Assembly (NCBI GenBank): GCA_033391075.1 | Contig: JAWPMV010000005.1 | Span: 1-64,000, forward strand | Length of the DNA: 64,000 nt | Reading direction: 5' to 3' | Source: Bacteroidia bacterium | GTDB taxonomy: Bacteria; Bacteroidota; Bacteroidia; J057 | Shown: positions 16,424-23,742 of the stretch, in pieces | Layout of the letters: every line of letters begins with the position of its first letter | Position numbering within the stretch: the stretch's first letter is position 1 | Translations under genes and position numbers: made by a program | The notes under the pieces: generated by a model | What the model was told of the DNA's origin: nothing | Databases searched by the model: none | Seen by the model: only the letters and a program-made list of their open reading frames with translations

Positions 16424-18208
16424 ATGAAATTACCCAAGACTAATTTCAGGATTTTCACCTATGCTATAGCAGGGATTCTTTGTATGTGGGGAGGCGAAAG
16501 TATAGGTCAAACCTATAAAGACTATTTTGGGAACGGCCACCAGATAGGAATACAAGCCACTTCAAGTGATACTTCAAGCACAGATCATGCGACTGAAAGT
16601 ATTTCCGGAACAGGCATGATTCCTGATCTCAAGGGTTCTTCCCGTTTTCTTGCTCAGGCAACCCTGGGATACAACTATGATGATATCCAAAACCTCAGCC
16701 AAATAGGTATTGATGCCTGGTTGGATGGACAGTTCGCCGAATCTGATACTTCTTATTTACAGATGTACTGGTCCCAATTGGGCATGACGGGCCTGCCAGA
16801 TGTAACTGATCTTCAGGATCTTAAAAGTTACTATCTGAGTAGAAGCTTTTACTATAATGTGGTAAAACGGGAGGATCAACTCAGACAAAAACTGGGATTC
16901 GCGCTCAGCCAGATTCTGGTTACTTCCATCGCAACAGGTGGAAACTGGGGAGACCAATACGCCGAGTATTATGATATCCTGTACCGCAATGCATTTGGCA
17001 ACTACCGAGACATTTTGGCTCAGGTAACCTATTCGACAAGTATGGGAAGATACCTGAGTTCCATCAAGAACCCCAAAGCGGATTATGGGCTAAATACCCT
17101 GCCGGATGAAAATTATGCCCGTGAGATCATGCAGCTATTTACTATCGGATTGTTGGAGCTCAATAATGATGGGACCCTGAAACTTGATACAGAAGGCAAT
17201 CCCATTCCGACTTATACCAATGAAGATATTCAGGAAATGGCCAAAGTTTTTACAGGATTAAACTATGCGACAGACAGGATGGGAGCCCCCAACAATAACT
17301 GGAACATAGGATATAATAGTTACGGGCGGATAAACGGAATGAAAGTCTTTCCGAACTATCATGATGTTACCTCAAAACGGATGATAGATGGGACTGTTTT
17401 ACCAGCTGGTAGAAGTGGCAATCAGGATATTGAAGATGTCATTGATCTTTTATTTAATCATCCGAACACCGGACCCTTCGTCAGTATTCGGCTTATTCAA
17501 AATTTTGTCAAATCCAATCCTACTCCTGCCTATGTAAATCGGGTAGCTACTGTATTTAACAACAATGGCAAAGGAGAAAGAGGAGATTTACAAGCCGTAA
17601 TCAGAGCCATTCTGGTTGACCCGGAAGCAAGAGATTGTTCCTGGATAGATGATCCTCAAAATGGAAAACTGGCTCAGCCCATCGAGCGGACAAGTCGCTT
17701 GTTGGCAGCTTTTAATGTATATGATACACCGGATACCCTCTATTTAAGAGATGTTTCAGAAACACAATTGGGACAAACTTTTATGAATGCACCTACGGTA
17801 TTCAATTATTTCTCTCCTTTTTATCAGGAAGAAAAATACATAGCGCCTCAAAACCTCGTTTCACCGGAATTTGAAATCCTAAATGATGTAACAGCCATTG
17901 AAAACCTCAACCTGACGGAAAACCGAATCAAAAGCAGGCCTTTCAGGAACAGGTATCCCAATGGAAATAATCCTGCATTGGACCTGAGTGAGGAGATCAA
18001 TCTGATGGGATCACAGGGTATTTCTGCTGTTTTGGATCGTCTGGATATCCTCTTGTGCAGAGGACAACTTTCCACAGAAACCAGGAATACCATCATCAGT
18101 ACCATCGACCAGTACAAGGCCAATATCAATAACTACTCTGACGAAAGAGCAGTTGAAGATGCCATTTACTTCCTGTTGGTATCTCCTGATTATCTCATCA
18201 TCAAATAA
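16424..18208 (+). CDS. DUF1800 secreted protein
   Basis: The 594-aa protein has an N-terminal signal peptide (about residues 1-28, ending near SIGQ). A DUF1800 domain covers most of the chain, recognisable from SSRFLAQATLGYNYDDIQNL, NYAREIMQLFTIGLLELN and VFTGLNYA. Its function is unknown; members are almost always paired with a DUF1501 protein, as here. No T9SS sorting domain is present at the C-terminus, so it is probably periplasmic or held on the surface by a partner. It starts the four-gene secreted cluster and is separated from the next gene by 8 bp. Confidence 0.9.
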   Translation: MKLPKTNFRIFTYAIAGILCMWGGESIGQTYKDYFGNGHQIGIQATSSDTSSTDHATESISGTGMIPDLKGSSRFLAQATLGYNYDDIQNLSQIGIDAWLDGQFAESDTSYLQMYWSQLGMTGLPDVTDLQDLKSYYLSRSFYYNVVKREDQLRQKLGFALSQILVTSIATGGNWGDQYAEYYDILYRNAFGNYRDILAQVTYSTSMGRYLSSIKNPKADYGLNTLPDENYAREIMQLFTIGLLELNNDGTLKLDTEGNPIPTYTNEDIQEMAKVFTGLNYATDRMGAPNNNWNIGYNSYGRINGMKVFPNYHDVTSKRMIDGTVLPAGRSGNQDIEDVIDLLFNHPNTGPFVSIRLIQNFVKSNPTPAYVNRVATVFNNNGKGERGDLQAVIRAILVDPEARDCSWIDDPQNGKLAQPIERTSRLLAAFNVYDTPDTLYLRDVSETQLGQTFMNAPTVFNYFSPFYQEEKYIAPQNLVSPEFEILNDVTAIENLNLTENRIKSRPFRNRYPNGNNPALDLSEEINLMGSQGISAVLDRLDILLCRGQLSTETRNTIISTIDQYKANINNYSDERAVEDAIYFLLVSPDYLIIK

Positions 18209-18216
18209 TTGAAAGC

Positions 18217-19635
18217 ATGTCTAAGAAGAAATATTCAAGAAGAAATTTTATAACAACCTTGAGTGGGGGCTGTGCATCTGTAGGGATTACCTCTGCGTTG
18301 GCAGGAATTACCAATTTAGGTTTGGTAAATGCTGCTGCGGCTGCTAATCACTCGATGTTTAGGCCTCAAAACACCTACAAAGCCCTGGTTTGTGTCATGT
18401 TTGCCGGAGGAAATGATAGCTTCAATATGCTCATTCCCAGGGGGAATGACGAGTATAATGAGTATGCGACAGTCAGAACCAATCTGGCCATTCCCCAAAA
18501 CCAGCTCCTTCCCTTGAATCCCTTAAATCAAATGAATAAGCAATTGGGGCTGCATCCCAATTTGCCAGATGTGAAGCAGATCTTTGATAATGGGGATATG
18601 GCTTTTGTCTCCAATGTGGGAGCACTGGTAGAACCGCTGACAAAATCAGTATACCAAAGTAAGCTGAAACCCGTTCCGGTGGGTTTATTCTCTCACTCTG
18701 ATCAGCAAAAACACTGGCAGACTTCTGTACCTCAGGATCGGAGAGAAATCCATGGCTGGGGAGGACGATTGGCGGACATCATGTACACCAATAATGCCAA
18801 CCAAAATATCTCCATGAATATCGCGATCGATAATGGAAATATTTTTCAGAAGGGCCAGAATGCTTTGCCCTATGTAATCAAGAGCAATGGAGGAGGAGGG
18901 AGTATTGTGCTGAATGGAAGTAGTAACAATAACTTTTACGAAACCCTTAAGCGCCAAACCCTGGACAACCTCCTGGATGCTACTTACCAGAATGTGCTCG
19001 AAAAAGGCTATACCAATTCTGTACAAAATGCAGTAGGTTCTTCTTTCGAATTCAATTCTGCACTTTCCGGAGCTCCACCTCTCACAACTACATTTCCTGA
19101 CAACCAATTTGGCAGGAGATTGGAAATAACGGCCAAGACCATTGCTGCAAGAAATCTGCTCAATGTCTCGCACCAAACCTTCTTTCTGCAAATTGGAGGA
19201 TTTGATACGCATGGCTCAATAGATGATCATAGCGATTTGATGACTGTGGTAAATGATGGCTTAAAAGCCTTCTATGATTCCCTGGTCGAAATGGGCGTAC
19301 AGAATGATGTTACCACTTTTTCCATCTCTGATTTTGGGAGAAAGCTGATCTCTAATGGCACGGGTTCTGATCATGCCTGGGGAGGAAATGCGATTGTAAT
19401 GGGGGGTGCCGTAAACGGCCAAAGAATCTATGGAGAGTATCCGGATTTGGCTGAAGGAAGTTCTCTGGTATTTGGAGGGGGACGGGTATTGCCGACCACT
19501 TCCTGCGATGAGTATTACTCAGAACTGGCCCTTTGGTTTGGCGCATCTACTGCTGACCTCCCTCAAATTTTTCCTAACATATCCAATTTCTGGCTACCGA
19601 ATTCCGGCTCAAGCCCCCTTGGATTCATGAGCTAA
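18217..19635 (+). CDS. DUF1501 protein with Tat signal
   Basis: This 472-aa protein opens with a twin-arginine signal (SRRNFITTLSGG followed by a hydrophobic stretch), so it is probably exported folded. The body is DUF1501, distantly related to the alkaline phosphatase/sulfatase superfamily. VCVMFAGGNDSFNMLIP, GLFSHSDQQKHWQTS, QIGGFDTHG and GSDHAWGGNAIVMGG are typical. It follows the DUF1800 gene after 8 bp and precedes the dockerin-like gene by 11 bp, so one transcript is likely. The enzymatic activity of DUF1501 is not established. Confidence 0.9.
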   Translation: MSKKKYSRRNFITTLSGGCASVGITSALAGITNLGLVNAAAAANHSMFRPQNTYKALVCVMFAGGNDSFNMLIPRGNDEYNEYATVRTNLAIPQNQLLPLNPLNQMNKQLGLHPNLPDVKQIFDNGDMAFVSNVGALVEPLTKSVYQSKLKPVPVGLFSHSDQQKHWQTSVPQDRREIHGWGGRLADIMYTNNANQNISMNIAIDNGNIFQKGQNALPYVIKSNGGGGSIVLNGSSNNNFYETLKRQTLDNLLDATYQNVLEKGYTNSVQNAVGSSFEFNSALSGAPPLTTTFPDNQFGRRLEITAKTIAARNLLNVSHQTFFLQIGGFDTHGSIDDHSDLMTVVNDGLKAFYDSLVEMGVQNDVTTFSISDFGRKLISNGTGSDHAWGGNAIVMGGAVNGQRIYGEYPDLAEGSSLVFGGGRVLPTTSCDEYYSELALWFGASTADLPQIFPNISNFWLPNSGSSPLGFMS

Positions 19636-19646
19636 GCATCTAAATA

Positions 19647-22565
19647 ATGAAAAATATATACACCTTTATTATAAGGCCCATATATCTACTGATAAGTACT
19701 TGCTTTTTGCTCATGATTTTGAGCAATAATTCATACGCTCAGTGTGTGGATGATGGTAATACCTGGAACCAAAGTTGGAAATCCTGTATCCTTACCCCTA
19801 ATCCTAATGCTGCTCGTTTAAATTCTCACTGGTTACTTTTTTCCTTTGATGAACCCCAGAACATAGATTCTACCCATATCTGGAATGCAAACCGGGCGGG
19901 GGAAAGTATTGATGGAATCAAAACAGCTATTATCGACTATTCTGTTGATGATAGTACCTGGATACAATTAGGGAGTTTCAATTTCCCACAGGGTACAGAA
20001 CAAAGCGATTATGAAGGCTTTGACGGACCCAATTTAGGAGGTATCTGGGTAAAGAAAATCCTGATTACCGTTCAGGAAACCTATGGAAATGGCAGTTGCG
20101 CTTCTTTAGCGGAGATTCAATTTCAGGTTGATGAAGATGCCTGTTATGGAGAAGTGGATGCTTGTGGTAACTGTAATGGACCGGGCGAAACGGTTTGGTA
20201 CAAAGATGAAGATGGAGACGGTCTGGGTACACAAAGTATAGTTACAATGGCATGTGAGCAGCCTATTGGCTATGTAGAGAATGCTGATGATGATTGCGAC
20301 AATGGTTTGCTGGGATGGAATGAGATTGAATTCATTTTCATGGAAAATGGCTGTAGAGGTTGCCACGGAACCAATGGCGCAGGAGGACTTGATCTGACTT
20401 CTTATGTAAGCACCATACAAGGTGGTAACAATTGCGGGACAGATATTCTGACTGGAAACACCCTTGCCAGTATCATCATGGTAGATGGATATAATGGCTG
20501 TGGAACTCCCATCAGCTCGCCTTCTATGAATGCGAGAACTGGTGGAATGATAGATAGTACAGAACTTGCCGCTATCCAGACCTGGATAGATGCGGGTGCA
20601 CCTGAAAATTGTAATTGTGTTGCCGGAGCTCCTGATAATGATGGCGATGGAATCTGTGATGCCGTAGATGAATGTCCGAATTTCAATAATAACCTCATCG
20701 GAACAGCCTGTGATGATGGACTGGTTTGTACAGATAATGATGTATGGGTGGCTACTTGCGAATGTAAAGGAACTCCTCGCCAGGATACAGATGATGATGG
20801 CGTATGTGATGACGAGGATTTGGCTCCCAATAATCCCTGTACAGCTGATGGCGTAATGGATGGAGTAGAACCTGCTGGATGGATTCCCAATCCCCTCAAT
20901 GATTGTGATGTCGATGGAGTAACGGTTGTACAAGGAGACTTGAATGACTATGAAGCTTGTGTAAATGAAGTTGGAAGTCTTACGACAGCCGCTTGTAATT
21001 GTGGAACAGCTGTAACCGTAGAAGGAGGAACCTATATTAGCTCTGTTGGGATAAATAATGCACAAAGAGCAGATGGTTTACCAGACAGTAGTTTTACCAG
21101 TTACATAGGAGGAAATGATAGTTTGTATTTGCAAACCTCTTATTTAAGTGAAGGAGAAATCGTGTGTATAACTACCCGCTTTACAGATCCGGATGGGCGT
21201 ATTAGGGTAGAAGCCAATGGCGAATTATTTACCCTGCTAAATGGAGATCCTGGAAATGATCAAAGAATCTGTTACGAAGTTCGAACGGATGGAATTCAGA
21301 ATATTCTAATTAAAGATGGAGGTGCAGGCGGTATTTATATCGATGGACTGGATTACAACTATTGTCCCTGTACGGACTTTAGTGTGAATGGTGATCCTGA
21401 TACCAGTGCAGTAGTGAAGGCCTATTCCAATCTTACCGGATGGCAGATACTTACGGATGCGACCTTCTTTGTTTGTGAAGGTGATTCATTGGCCTTGGGC
21501 CTTGAATCAGGAATAGCAAGCAGTTTTGATTGGACCGGTCCCGGGATTGGTCTGGTTCAGGCGCCAGAATTAGCAGTAGGTATTGCAAGCCCGGCTGATG
21601 AAGGCCTATATACAGCTACCTATACCAATTCCAACGGATGTGTAGTCCGCAAAGATATACAAGTCTATGTTGAAGCGGCTCCACAGATCAGCTATGTGAA
21701 GGTTGATCCGGTTTGTACAGATCCTAGCTCGGGCATTATCACCTTTAGTTTTGACAATAATCCGAATAGATCAAGCCTTGAGTTCAGTATAAATGGGCAA
21801 AACGGTCCATATCGTACGGTTGCTGATGATATTGGTAGCTTCAGTATGACGGATCTGGAAAGTGGAAGTTATGATCTTTGGGCAAGATGGGAGTCCAATC
21901 ATATTGAAATCAATTTGGGGCAAGTGGTATTGATGGGCTGTAATGAGGTCGAGGTTTCTGCCTTCCTGGAAGGGCCTATGCGAAACGACAGTATGGGAAC
22001 CTTTATCATAAGTCAAATGGACAATCTCGATCCTTATCTAGGATTAGATAGTTCTGCAAATATTCCTTCGAATGTGGTGGATTGGGTGCTTGTTCAAATC
22101 AGGGACAGTGCCGATAGCCGAATCGTACTTGCCCAACGGGCTGCCTTTATCACCAGCCAGGGACAAGTTATATCAACTGGAGGAAACTCGAAATTGGGCA
22201 TGAGAGAGAATATTCCAGACAGGGCCTATATCGCGCTGCTGCATAGAAATCACCTGGGGGTTATGACGGCTGATCCGGTAGATCTCTCTCAGCCCCTTGA
22301 TTTTAGTGATCCTAATACTGCAGTTTATGGTTTGAATCCACGCAAAATGATCAATGGAAAAGCGGTCATGTACGCAGGAGACTGTAATCAGGATGGCAGT
22401 ATCAATGCAGTCGATAAAAACAACTATTGGAGATTGCAAAATGGACAACCCTTTGAGTACGGACAGGGAGGCGGTGATATGAACATGGACGGTTCAGTCA
22501 ATGTCATAGACGCCAATGGATACTGGCGAATCAATAATGGTAAGCTTACCCAAATCCCTAATTAA
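19647..22565 (+). CDS. Secreted multidomain protein: discoidin-like, heme-c motif, TSP3 repeats, dockerin-like end
   Basis: The 972-aa protein has a signal peptide (about 1-31). In order it shows an F5/8-type C-like galactose-binding domain (about 45-162); a Cys/Asp-rich segment; a c-type cytochrome-like domain with CRGCH at 236-240 and candidate axial Met near 294; calcium-type DNDGDG repeats (about 328-400); a carbohydrate-binding-like beta domain (about 450-575); and Ig-like regions. The C-terminus (about 905-970) has two dockerin-like calcium loops, DCNQDGSINAVD and DMNMDGSVNVID. No T9SS domain is present. The next gene encodes a cohesin-like protein, suggesting surface tethering through dockerin-cohesin contact. 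The role is inferred, not known. Confidence 0.75.
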   Translation: MKNIYTFIIRPIYLLISTCFLLMILSNNSYAQCVDDGNTWNQSWKSCILTPNPNAARLNSHWLLFSFDEPQNIDSTHIWNANRAGESIDGIKTAIIDYSVDDSTWIQLGSFNFPQGTEQSDYEGFDGPNLGGIWVKKILITVQETYGNGSCASLAEIQFQVDEDACYGEVDACGNCNGPGETVWYKDEDGDGLGTQSIVTMACEQPIGYVENADDDCDNGLLGWNEIEFIFMENGCRGCHGTNGAGGLDLTSYVSTIQGGNNCGTDILTGNTLASIIMVDGYNGCGTPISSPSMNARTGGMIDSTELAAIQTWIDAGAPENCNCVAGAPDNDGDGICDAVDECPNFNNNLIGTACDDGLVCTDNDVWVATCECKGTPRQDTDDDGVCDDEDLAPNNPCTADGVMDGVEPAGWIPNPLNDCDVDGVTVVQGDLNDYEACVNEVGSLTTAACNCGTAVTVEGGTYISSVGINNAQRADGLPDSSFTSYIGGNDSLYLQTSYLSEGEIVCITTRFTDPDGRIRVEANGELFTLLNGDPGNDQRICYEVRTDGIQNILIKDGGAGGIYIDGLDYNYCPCTDFSVNGDPDTSAVVKAYSNLTGWQILTDATFFVCEGDSLALGLESGIASSFDWTGPGIGLVQAPELAVGIASPADEGLYTATYTNSNGCVVRKDIQVYVEAAPQISYVKVDPVCTDPSSGIITFSFDNNPNRSSLEFSINGQNGPYRTVADDIGSFSMTDLESGSYDLWARWESNHIEINLGQVVLMGCNEVEVSAFLEGPMRNDSMGTFIISQMDNLDPYLGLDSSANIPSNVVDWVLVQIRDSADSRIVLAQRAAFITSQGQVISTGGNSKLGMRENIPDRAYIALLHRNHLGVMTADPVDLSQPLDFSDPNTAVYGLNPRKMINGKAVMYAGDCNQDGSINAVDKNNYWRLQNGQPFEYGQGGGDMNMDGSVNVIDANGYWRINNGKLTQIPN

Positions 22566-22584
22566 GACCTTTCAAATATTTATC

Positions 22585-23682
22585 ATGAAATCGAATATCA
22601 TATATTACTTGAGTACATGCTTCTTCCTGGGACTGCTAGTGGCAGGGCAGGGGCTATGGGCTCAAACCACATATAACCTTTCCTTTGCCAATCCCAAACT
22701 CACCGCAAATCCTCTACAGCTTTCTGTGGATGTGATGCTCTCTTTCAATCAGGAAGGGCAATTGGGATCAAGCAATCTTGCGATCGAGTACGATCCCAAA
22801 GTGCTGACACGCCCTCAATTGATTGCCCAGCATCTATCGGATGTGCCGACTTATCTCGAGCCGAACCTCACCCTTCAAATGGAAGGGAGAGTAGCGTTAA
22901 ATATTGAGCTGCTGGCCAATGGTCAGGGAGATGAGATTGGCCTGGATGGAAATGATGTCAAAATAGCTCGCCTATCTTTTGATCTCTTTTCTACCGAAGA
23001 ATTGATCAATCTGAACTGGTATGAGTCTGGGACAGTAGGAACGGTAGTCTTTAGTGATGATCCGAACTTTACCCAACTGAATCCTGCAAAACTGGAAAAT
23101 ATGACCTTCAATCCTGCAGATTTTCCAGCCCAGGACCTTATTCTTACAGCTGTTCAGGTAGGACTTGATGCGGAACTGGAATGGGAGGATGTCGCGGATT
23201 TACAGGCCTTGAATTATGAGGTAGAAAGGTCGGTAGATGGAGATTTGTTTGAAGTGATAGCGACTGTGGATAAAAATGCCAATCAGGGAACGGGTCGAAG
23301 CTACACCTATCTGGATGAAGGGATCGTACACTCGCTGGAGGGAAGAATTTATTATAGAGTGAAGCAGAAGGAAGTAGATGGTACCTATATTACCAGTAAT
23401 ACCGTCGAGCTCACGATCGATGAGGTAAATGCCCTGGGTTTAGAGGCTTTCCCCAATCCTGTAGTAGATGAGGTGAAGATTCAATGGGTGGATTTGGGAG
23501 GAAAAGCCGAGATAAGTTTACTTGATGCAAAAGGTCAATTGGTAAAAACTGCCAAAACAGAAATGGGTCAATCCAGTCTCGATTGGGACTTAAGTAAGCT
23601 CAGCTCAGGCGTATATTTTATCGAATACAAAAATCTGGACCTCCAGAGCATGCGTGCTTCTGTGACGGTGCAGGTTAAATAA
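22585..23682 (+). CDS. Cohesin-like protein with T9SS type A sorting domain
   Basis: ATG 22585 was chosen because it starts directly at a signal peptide (MKSNIIYYLSTCFFLG...WAQ). The longer frame overlaps the preceding gene and delays the signal. The 365-aa protein has an N-terminal beta domain (about 25-170) resembling cohesins, with segments LSVDVMLSFN, LAIEYDPKVL and KIARLSFDLFS. A fibronectin-like segment follows, and the C-terminus is a T9SS domain (LEAFPNPVVDEVKI to the end). It should be exported by the type IX system and anchored on the surface. It is the last gene of the cluster and is followed by a terminator. Confidence 0.75.
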   Translation: MKSNIIYYLSTCFFLGLLVAGQGLWAQTTYNLSFANPKLTANPLQLSVDVMLSFNQEGQLGSSNLAIEYDPKVLTRPQLIAQHLSDVPTYLEPNLTLQMEGRVALNIELLANGQGDEIGLDGNDVKIARLSFDLFSTEELINLNWYESGTVGTVVFSDDPNFTQLNPAKLENMTFNPADFPAQDLILTAVQVGLDAELEWEDVADLQALNYEVERSVDGDLFEVIATVDKNANQGTGRSYTYLDEGIVHSLEGRIYYRVKQKEVDGTYITSNTVELTIDEVNALGLEAFPNPVVDEVKIQWVDLGGKAEISLLDAKGQLVKTAKTEMGQSSLDWDLSKLSSGVYFIEYKNLDLQSMRASVTVQVK

Positions 23683-23700: not shown

Positions 23701-23742
23701 AATGGTAGGTTGGTTAATTCCAGCCTGCCATTTTTCCTTTTT
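23701..23742 (+). terminator. Terminator after the cohesin-like gene
   Basis: AATGGTAGGTTGG (23701-23713) pairs with CCAGCCTGCCATT (23720-23732) using G-T pairs at two positions. The T-rich tract TTTCCTTTTT follows. It lies 18 bp after the stop codon. Confidence 0.75.

Follow-up and report, generated by a model that had tools for sequence, protein, structure and literature searches.

Gene content of the locus

The 64,000-nucleotide (nt) stretch of DNA analysed here, which is referred to as the window (contig JAWPMV010000005.1 of the Bacteroidia bacterium assembly GCA_033391075.1), contains a run of four genes encoding a DUF1800 protein, a DUF1501 protein, a protein of 972 amino acids (aa) that ends in a dockerin, and a 365-aa protein with a cohesin-fold domain and a sorting domain of the type IX secretion system (T9SS) (Table 1). 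The last open reading frame (ORF) admits two starts, of which the ATG at 22585, followed by a signal-peptide-like segment (judged by eye), appears better than the one at 22516; given this start, the intergenic gaps are 8, 11 and 19 nt, and the four genes likely form a single operon. The terminator-like hairpin that would end the operon lies in a region with 6 such sites compared to 6.4 in shuffled sequences, that is, without enrichment.

Table 1. Genes and features of the four-gene locus (positions in the window)
Feature	Position	Strand	Details
DUF1800 protein, 594 aa	16424..18208	+	PF08811, E 3.5e-83; first gene of the presumed operon
DUF1501 protein, 472 aa	18217..19635	+	PF07394, E 5.2e-30; twin-arginine-like start (SRRNFI), Tat motif judged by eye
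972-aa protein	19647..22565	+	signal-peptide-like start (by eye), F5/8C-like domain, one CxxCH, linker, X-dockerin module
F5/8 type C-like domain of the 972-aa protein	19752..20114	+	PF00754, 19.5 bits, under the cut-off of 28.2
Haem-type motif CxxCH (CRGCH) of the 972-aa protein	20352..20366	+	weak PF00034 match, E 0.16
X-like beta domain (LEGP...HRNHLGVMTA...)	21942..22373	+	AlphaFold2 model together with the dockerin; alignment to X-dockerin chains
Dockerin, two 12-residue calcium-type loops, a helix after each	22374..22562	+	PF00404; helices 156-166 and 188-198 of the model
365-aa cohesin/T9SS protein	22585..23682	+	ORF open from 22516 (388 aa)
Cohesin-fold domain	22660..23121	+	AlphaFold2 pLDDT 85, pTM 0.83; structural matches in the PDB are cohesins
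T9SS type A sorting domain	23449..23640	+	PF18962 (Por_Secre_tail), 1.3e-11; TIGR04183, 2e-8
Terminator-like hairpin	23701..23732	+	13 pairs and a T-rich tail; consensus match only

A predicted X-dockerin dyad and a predicted cohesin fold encoded by adjacent genes

The loops DCNQDGSINAVD and DMNMDGSVNVID (positions 22380-22415 and 22476-22511) lie within a match to the Dockerin_1 model (PF00404) that scores 23.8 bits in the whole 972-aa protein (aa 910-956) and 30.9 bits for the isolated stretch, with a cut-off of 22.9; an E-value of 0.01 or lower with this model is reached by 13 of 34 aligned dockerins. No T9SS model is present in the Pfam (E<=10) or NCBIfam (E<=0.1) listings for this protein. 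The ~140 residues that precede the dockerin are a conserved domain, and together the two domains form one module, of which Pfam matches the dockerin part only and NCBIfam none. In the AlphaFold2 model of the module (pLDDT 92, pTM 0.89 for two domains), each calcium-type loop is followed by a helix. In the VIA-align comparison, each of the first eight rows is a chain with an X-dockerin dyad from a type II complex, at Z 9.2-10.4 compared to 4.9 in row 9, and the alignments of 141-146 residues span model residue 1 to 201-207; Foldseek agrees more weakly (5m0y_B, 8.2e-4; 2b59_B, 1.4e-3). Because these dyads match over the full model, the domain before the dockerin has the place and shape of an X module. 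By its predicted structure, the 972-aa protein ends in an X-dockerin dyad with calcium-type loops, the binding of which is presumably calcium dependent. When the dockerin profile was compared with the PDB, the top two matches were tandem cyanovirins (2e-6 and 2.9e-6), with dockerins following from 7.1e-6; the cyanovirin matches were treated as chance because their best single stretches have an i-E of 1.1.

The N-terminal domain of the 365-aa protein (residues 26-179) was modelled with AlphaFold2 from an alignment with 18 relatives, and in this model it is a cohesin fold. Foldseek, run against the PDB, lists 50 matches, each of them to a cohesin chain with probability 1.00 (best E 5.2e-6), and 53 matches of the model reach E 0.001. 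The first 48 rows of the VIA-align comparison are cohesins as well, with 6kgf_C at the top (Z 14.1, 140 residues, 2.9 A, 15% identity); the first non-cohesin is an integrin in row 49, with the same Z of 9.2 as the last cohesin. A profile of 20 such cohesin domains, searched against all PDB sequences, gave six matches at E<=10, all of them cohesins (best E 0.024). The C-terminal PF18962/TIGR04183 domain identifies the 365-aa protein as T9SS type A cargo.

These results agree with an earlier note, made from the DNA sequence alone, on the position and domain assignment of the four genes (all on the plus strand), on the two C-terminal dockerin-like loops and lack of a T9SS domain in the 972-aa protein, and on the combination of a cohesin-like and a T9SS domain in the product of the next gene; the note had specified a fold other than cohesin in the N-terminal domain as one outcome that would speak against it, and the predicted model shows a cohesin fold. 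The designation of the window as a T9SS cluster found no support, and the translocon gene sprA of this genome (PF14349, 470.6 bits) is located on a different contig.

Modules and cohesins elsewhere in the same genome

The genome that includes the window (9.49 Mb, 5 contigs) encodes eight copies of the module, six of them with X-dockerins of the window's class (hereafter, class A), and 11 class A cohesins. One of the eight module genes precedes a second module gene and one faces a gene on the opposite strand. In the other six cases a non-module gene on the same strand begins no more than 700 nt after the module gene; this next gene encodes a T9SS-tail protein in five of the six and a detected cohesin in four, compared to 11 of 99 and 0 of 99, respectively, for other gene pairs. 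The five T9SS-tail neighbours are the window's 365-aa protein, its 356-aa paralogue (34% identical over 334 aa), a 2354-aa protein and two more divergent proteins; the neighbour in locus L049 is the one among the five without a detected cohesin. In the six module proteins of this genome that were scanned, Pfam lists no T9SS tail.

The 2354-aa protein (L035:6128-13192, corresponding to C1:7344127-7351191 of the genome, minus strand), encoded after an X-dockerin gene, contains nine cohesins with 36-41% identity to that of the window, together with a T9SS tail under the Pfam cut-off; with its nine cohesins, it resembles the multi-cohesin scaffoldin of a cellulosome, encoded outside the window. 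Between the nine cohesins are cysteine-rich CDDG repeats, and this repeat recurs in the linker of the 972-aa protein (26 aa, 58-62% identical). The five class A partners that were scanned contain glucose/sorbosone dehydrogenase (GSDH), lactonase, lectin, F5/8C, PA14, PKD, FG-GAP and haloperoxidase-like domains; Pfam lists no glycoside hydrolase in any of the five, so that the plant-cell-wall hydrolases characteristic of a cellulosome are missing among them.

A profile search of the genome placed three Pfam cohesins above the cut-off elsewhere, in two proteins, namely, a 2669-aa frame with RCC1 repeats, HYR domains, two Pfam cohesins and a dockerin (L037:7156-15126, C1) and a 579-aa HYR/T9SS protein with one Pfam cohesin (L037:5040-6779, C1). 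Direct Pfam scans of the two proteins listed a single cohesin, below the cut-off, and did not list those of the 2669-aa protein.

The best single argument that the cohesin/X-dockerin pair does the work of a T9SS tail comes from a paralogous operon in the same genome (L044), in which the DUF1800 and DUF1501 proteins are 39% and 43% identical, respectively, to those of the window. The third gene of this operon encodes a 248-aa protein in which an N-terminal F5/8C domain, sharing 33% identity over 149 aa with its counterpart in the 972-aa protein, is joined directly to a C-terminal T9SS tail; compared with this arrangement, in the window the T9SS tail is replaced by an X-dockerin together with a separate cohesin/T9SS gene. 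Among the other DUF1501 proteins of the genome, three of six have a T9SS tail above the Pfam cut-off and a fourth has one just below it.

Distribution and gene pairing across Bacteroidota

The module was searched for in 395 Bacteroidota genomes, with at most seven candidates scored per genome, so that the copy numbers are lower bounds, and was found in 52 of these genomes. The cohesin was detected in 19 genomes, and the module is present in 18 of these 19 compared to 34 of the remaining 376 (Fisher p 1.3e-16). Judged by the coordinates listed, 10 of 32 cohesin matches outside the window's genome lie immediately 3' of a module, and many of the others are in ORFs of ~2000 aa. Within the window's order, the cohesin was detected in 10 of 22 genomes, all of which have the module (present in 14 of the 22; p 0.0017), and 8 of 12 cohesin matches outside the window's genome are directly 3' of a module. 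An initial search across the class, which was stricter, matched the cohesin in 4 of 247 genomes.

The loci around the module matches include 109 distinct module entries (some of them cut), of which 12 are followed by a further module gene. Another 15 lack a neighbour that could be counted, because it is on the opposite strand or far away or because the stretch ends there; the other 82 have a neighbour on the same strand that is not a module gene. In the 76 neighbours that are not cut, PF18962 was found in 47 and CHU_C in 20 (both at E<=0.01; the two sets may overlap), and TIGR04183 in 51. A cohesin was detected in 34 of the 82 neighbours with an iterated hidden Markov model (HMM), compared to 3 of 82 N-terminal parts with the Pfam model PF00963 at E<=0.1 (best 0.0083).

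A separate scan of GTDB genomes returned at least 495 relatives, the best 80 of which (hereafter, the named loci) were analysed; here, a T9SS tail is encoded by 11 of the 50 neighbours counted and a cohesin by 7 of the 50, compared to 11 and 2, respectively, of 358 other same-strand pairs (Fisher p ~8e-6 for each comparison). These loci encode 17 cohesin proteins, six of which are fused to the module, seven are encoded after a module gene, two are otherwise adjacent to one and two are found elsewhere. Furthermore, three long ORFs (L223, L224 and L225) run from the module through a cohesin to a T9SS-like end, with the ends recognised by eye and the module matched weakly in two of the three. Runs of three and four module genes, in L124 (genome G465) and L129 (genome G521), end in one cohesin/T9SS-tail protein of 1240-1247 aa.

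The dockerin and cohesin types also co-vary. Across 41 neighbouring pairs, dockerin distances correlate with cohesin distances (Mantel r 0.70, p 2e-4, the lowest value attainable with 5000 permutations) more strongly than X-domain distances do (r 0.42, p 2e-4), and r is 0.62 after the X-domain distance is removed; counting against the weight of these values, the correlation is confounded by shared descent, and some of the pairs come from close species. In the window's genome, dockerins of the window's type adjoin cohesins of the window's type, and a different dockerin, in L048, adjoins a different cohesin.

Relatives of the module with a different second half are present in gammaproteobacteria (L193 and L200 from the isolate Thiofilum flexile DSM 14609, L195 from a metagenome-assembled genome (MAG) of Thiotrichaceae), possibly as a result of transfer. 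Three module genes, one of them fused to a cohesin, lie on a contig of a Candidatus Thermoplasmatota archaeon MAG (L151), the archaeal assignment of which is probably a binning error.

Proposed anchoring mechanism and alternative explanations

Taken together, the predicted folds, gene order, co-occurrence and fusions point to a real, widespread, non-cellulosomal pairing of cohesin and X-dockerin genes with a T9SS anchor. We consider it probable that the last two genes of the operon encode an anchoring pair in which the T9SS-exported cohesin displays a partner that itself lacks a sorting signal. The 365-aa protein would be exported by the T9SS and present its cohesin domain, into which the X-dockerin of the 972-aa protein, a protein with a signal-peptide-like start and no T9SS signal, would plug; alternatively, the socket could be provided by the same-class cohesins of the nine-cohesin protein encoded elsewhere in the genome. 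The F5/8C and haem-type part of the 972-aa protein would thereby be held at the surface, and two genes would do what one T9SS tail does in a single protein.

Under this mechanism, passage of the 972-aa protein across the outer membrane would coincide with, or follow, that of its cohesin partner. Our T9SS-tail profile, built from ten other proteins of the window's genome, matches none of the 233 module ORF entries (219 distinct) compared to about three in five neighbours (other export signals were not searched), and the simplest route for the module proteins would be that the cohesin/T9SS protein captures them or is exported jointly with them. Proteins moved by the T9SS have been described as folded (PMC9251779); no account of T9SS export carried by a partner protein was found in the literature searched, which was covered in part. 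Extended to the phylum, this would make the small cohesin/T9SS proteins export adaptors for the piggyback secretion of tail-less proteins as cohesin/X-dockerin complexes, with the partners addressed by dockerin subtype, a generalisation that we put forward only tentatively.

Several observations weigh against the anchoring pair. The Pfam cohesin model PF00963 has no match in the 365-aa protein at E<=10; since its cut-off is not reached, the domain is denoted here as cohesin-fold and not as a PF00963 member, the missed match reflecting the limit of the model rather than the fold. In the window's genome, three of the eight module genes are not directly before a T9SS/cohesin gene, one of these three running into another module gene that does have such a neighbour. 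The cohesin was detected in 19 genomes only, compared to 52 with the module, and in the named loci, 39 of 50 neighbours have no T9SS tail and 43 of 50 no detected cohesin. Some tails are missed by our T9SS profile, because it finds 46 in the 76 uncut neighbours compared to 51 by TIGR04183. Conversely, four cohesin genes (L226-L229, selected for that reason) have no adjoining module, and one of these is in a genome without a module match. Finally, the adjacency counts are not independent because the loci were mostly fetched via the module and the cohesin HMM was trained on them. Two genomes of the window's family, G013 and G014, have 16 and 12 module matches, respectively, and one detected cohesin each, suggesting either that a single socket serves many plugs or that the other cohesins have diverged beyond the reach of the profile.

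The alternative that fares best is that the 972-aa dockerin docks mainly on the nine-cohesin 2354-aa protein, forming a cellulosome-like surface scaffold that would serve several partners, with the single-cohesin proteins as extra or regulatory sockets. The presence of nine same-class cohesins in one protein with a weak T9SS tail is consistent with such a scaffold, as are the eleven class A cohesins available to six X-dockerin proteins that are closely related to one another and the three of six class A X-dockerin genes that are not directly before a T9SS/cohesin gene. Nevertheless, the upstream neighbour of the 2354-aa protein is itself an X-dockerin protein, five of the eight module genes have a T9SS-tail neighbour of their own, and most neighbours in the phylum-wide listing have a length of 300-470 aa, with space for a single cohesin, so that we regard a predominant scaffold as a possible but somewhat doubtful explanation.

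It appears unlikely that the two proteins bind without the complex becoming anchored at the surface, with the dockerin protein periplasmic or shed and the T9SS tail of the cohesin protein cleaved without attachment. T9SS sorting domains are generally known not to lead to attachment in all cases, but the partners carry extracellular-type domains (F5/8C, PA14, lectin, PKD), and in the three long ORFs the module itself belongs to a protein with a T9SS-like end. Still less probable is that the X-dockerin acts on its own, as a C-terminal cap stabilised by calcium or as a sorting or retention signal, next to co-regulated T9SS cargo that does not bind it: this would fit the position of the module, usually at or near the C-terminus (L189 and the long L223 ORF are among the exceptions) and often ending in Q-[VIL]-P, the many module genes that stand alone, and the lack of detected T9SS tails on module proteins, as a competing signal would predict, but the neighbour, where detected, bears the very fold that binds X-dockerins, and the fusions and the subtype co-variation also speak against this explanation.

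Relation to known systems

Assembly through cohesins and dockerins is known mainly from clostridial cellulosomes. The proposed anchoring pair most closely resembles the clostridial type II cohesin/X-dockerin complexes (PDB 2b59, 4fl4, 5m0y, 4wi0), with which it shares the cohesin fold, the dyad of X module and dockerin, the C-terminal position of the dockerin and, given the generally known anchoring role of the clostridial proteins, the placement of the cohesin on a cell-fixed protein; the identity between these proteins and the window's domains is 8-22% in structural alignments. Unlike the clostridial pair, the anchor here is a T9SS sorting domain in a diderm and not a Gram-positive cell-wall anchor, no plant-cell-wall enzymes are found among the five partners scanned, and one cohesin gene often adjoins one X-dockerin gene. 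A cohesin outside cellulosomes is also represented by the Archaeoglobus fulgidus structure 2xdh, row 26 in the VIA-align comparison of our cohesin model. Non-cellulosomal cohesin- and dockerin-like modules were reportedly treated by Peer et al. in 2009. In contrast to such non-cellulosomal cohesins, the family described here is missed by the Pfam cohesin model and is tied to the T9SS. With its PF18962/TIGR04183 tail and signal-peptide-like start, the 365-aa protein is similar to other T9SS type A cargo, whereas the 972-aa protein, without a tail, would rely on its partner.

A scaffoldin-like complex has been inferred, from sequence only, in Candidatus Stygibacter of the phylum Cloacimonadota (PMC8542988). 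It similarly includes secreted proteins with dockerins and a protein with several cohesins and, at its C-terminus, a conserved surface-attachment domain, but it belongs to another phylum, its domains were found with standard models and its cargo consists of hydrolases and peptidases; an X-dockerin dyad, two-gene pairing or a single-cohesin anchor are not described in the parts of that article consulted (PMC8542988). Cohesin- and dockerin-related genes have been noted in Bacteroidetes metagenomes, and cohesin-related genes were counted in two Bacteroidetes MAGs; unlike the pair described here, these genes were interpreted as cellulosome parts with SLH anchoring, and T9SS, X-dockerins and gene pairing are absent from the parts of that article consulted (PMC8547425). 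In another source, one genome without cellulosomal cohesins or dockerins was called consistent with other Bacteroidetes (PMC5831590). No description of a cohesin/X-dockerin T9SS pair was found in the literature searched, which for the most part did not include subscription journals and preprints.

The predicted structures point to a cohesin family of Bacteroidota that is missed by Pfam and linked to the T9SS, and whose genes often each stand beside an X-dockerin gene; the recurrence of the pair across the phylum suggests that a means of attaching proteins to the cell surface has been overlooked. If this is correct, a set of secreted proteins without a recognisable T9SS signal could be assigned to the cell surface, the partner-carried T9SS export route would become testable, and new plug-and-socket pairs would be available.

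Haem-type motifs and the DUF1800/DUF1501 partners

The CxxCH motif is found in 4 of the 8 module proteins of the window's genome compared to 2 of 117 other ORFs longer than 300 aa. The counts elsewhere are low, namely, 4 of 104 module proteins versus 2 of 338 in the 80 named loci and 0 of 92 versus 0 of 141 in the phylum set; the haem motif is therefore a feature of this genome, and haem cargo was rejected as a general theme.

The tether proposed in the earlier note gained support from structure, phylum-wide adjacency, fusions and co-occurrence in its central part, the dockerin and the gene pairing, but its other part, a general function in tethering substrates of DUF1800 and DUF1501 proteins, did not. 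Module genes and DUF1800 loci of the window's genome coincide in one of eight and one of seven cases, respectively, and with a single such locus outside this genome, DUF1800 and DUF1501 were rejected as components of a general system; their link to the pair looks specific to this locus. The outside locus, L028 (genome G012, contig 257), contains the only DUF1800 gene among the ORFs of loci L005-L222 outside the window's genome (flanks of 1.5-10 kb), and it is the only other neighbourhood of this kind that was seen, with a cohesin gene directly upstream of the DUF1800 gene.

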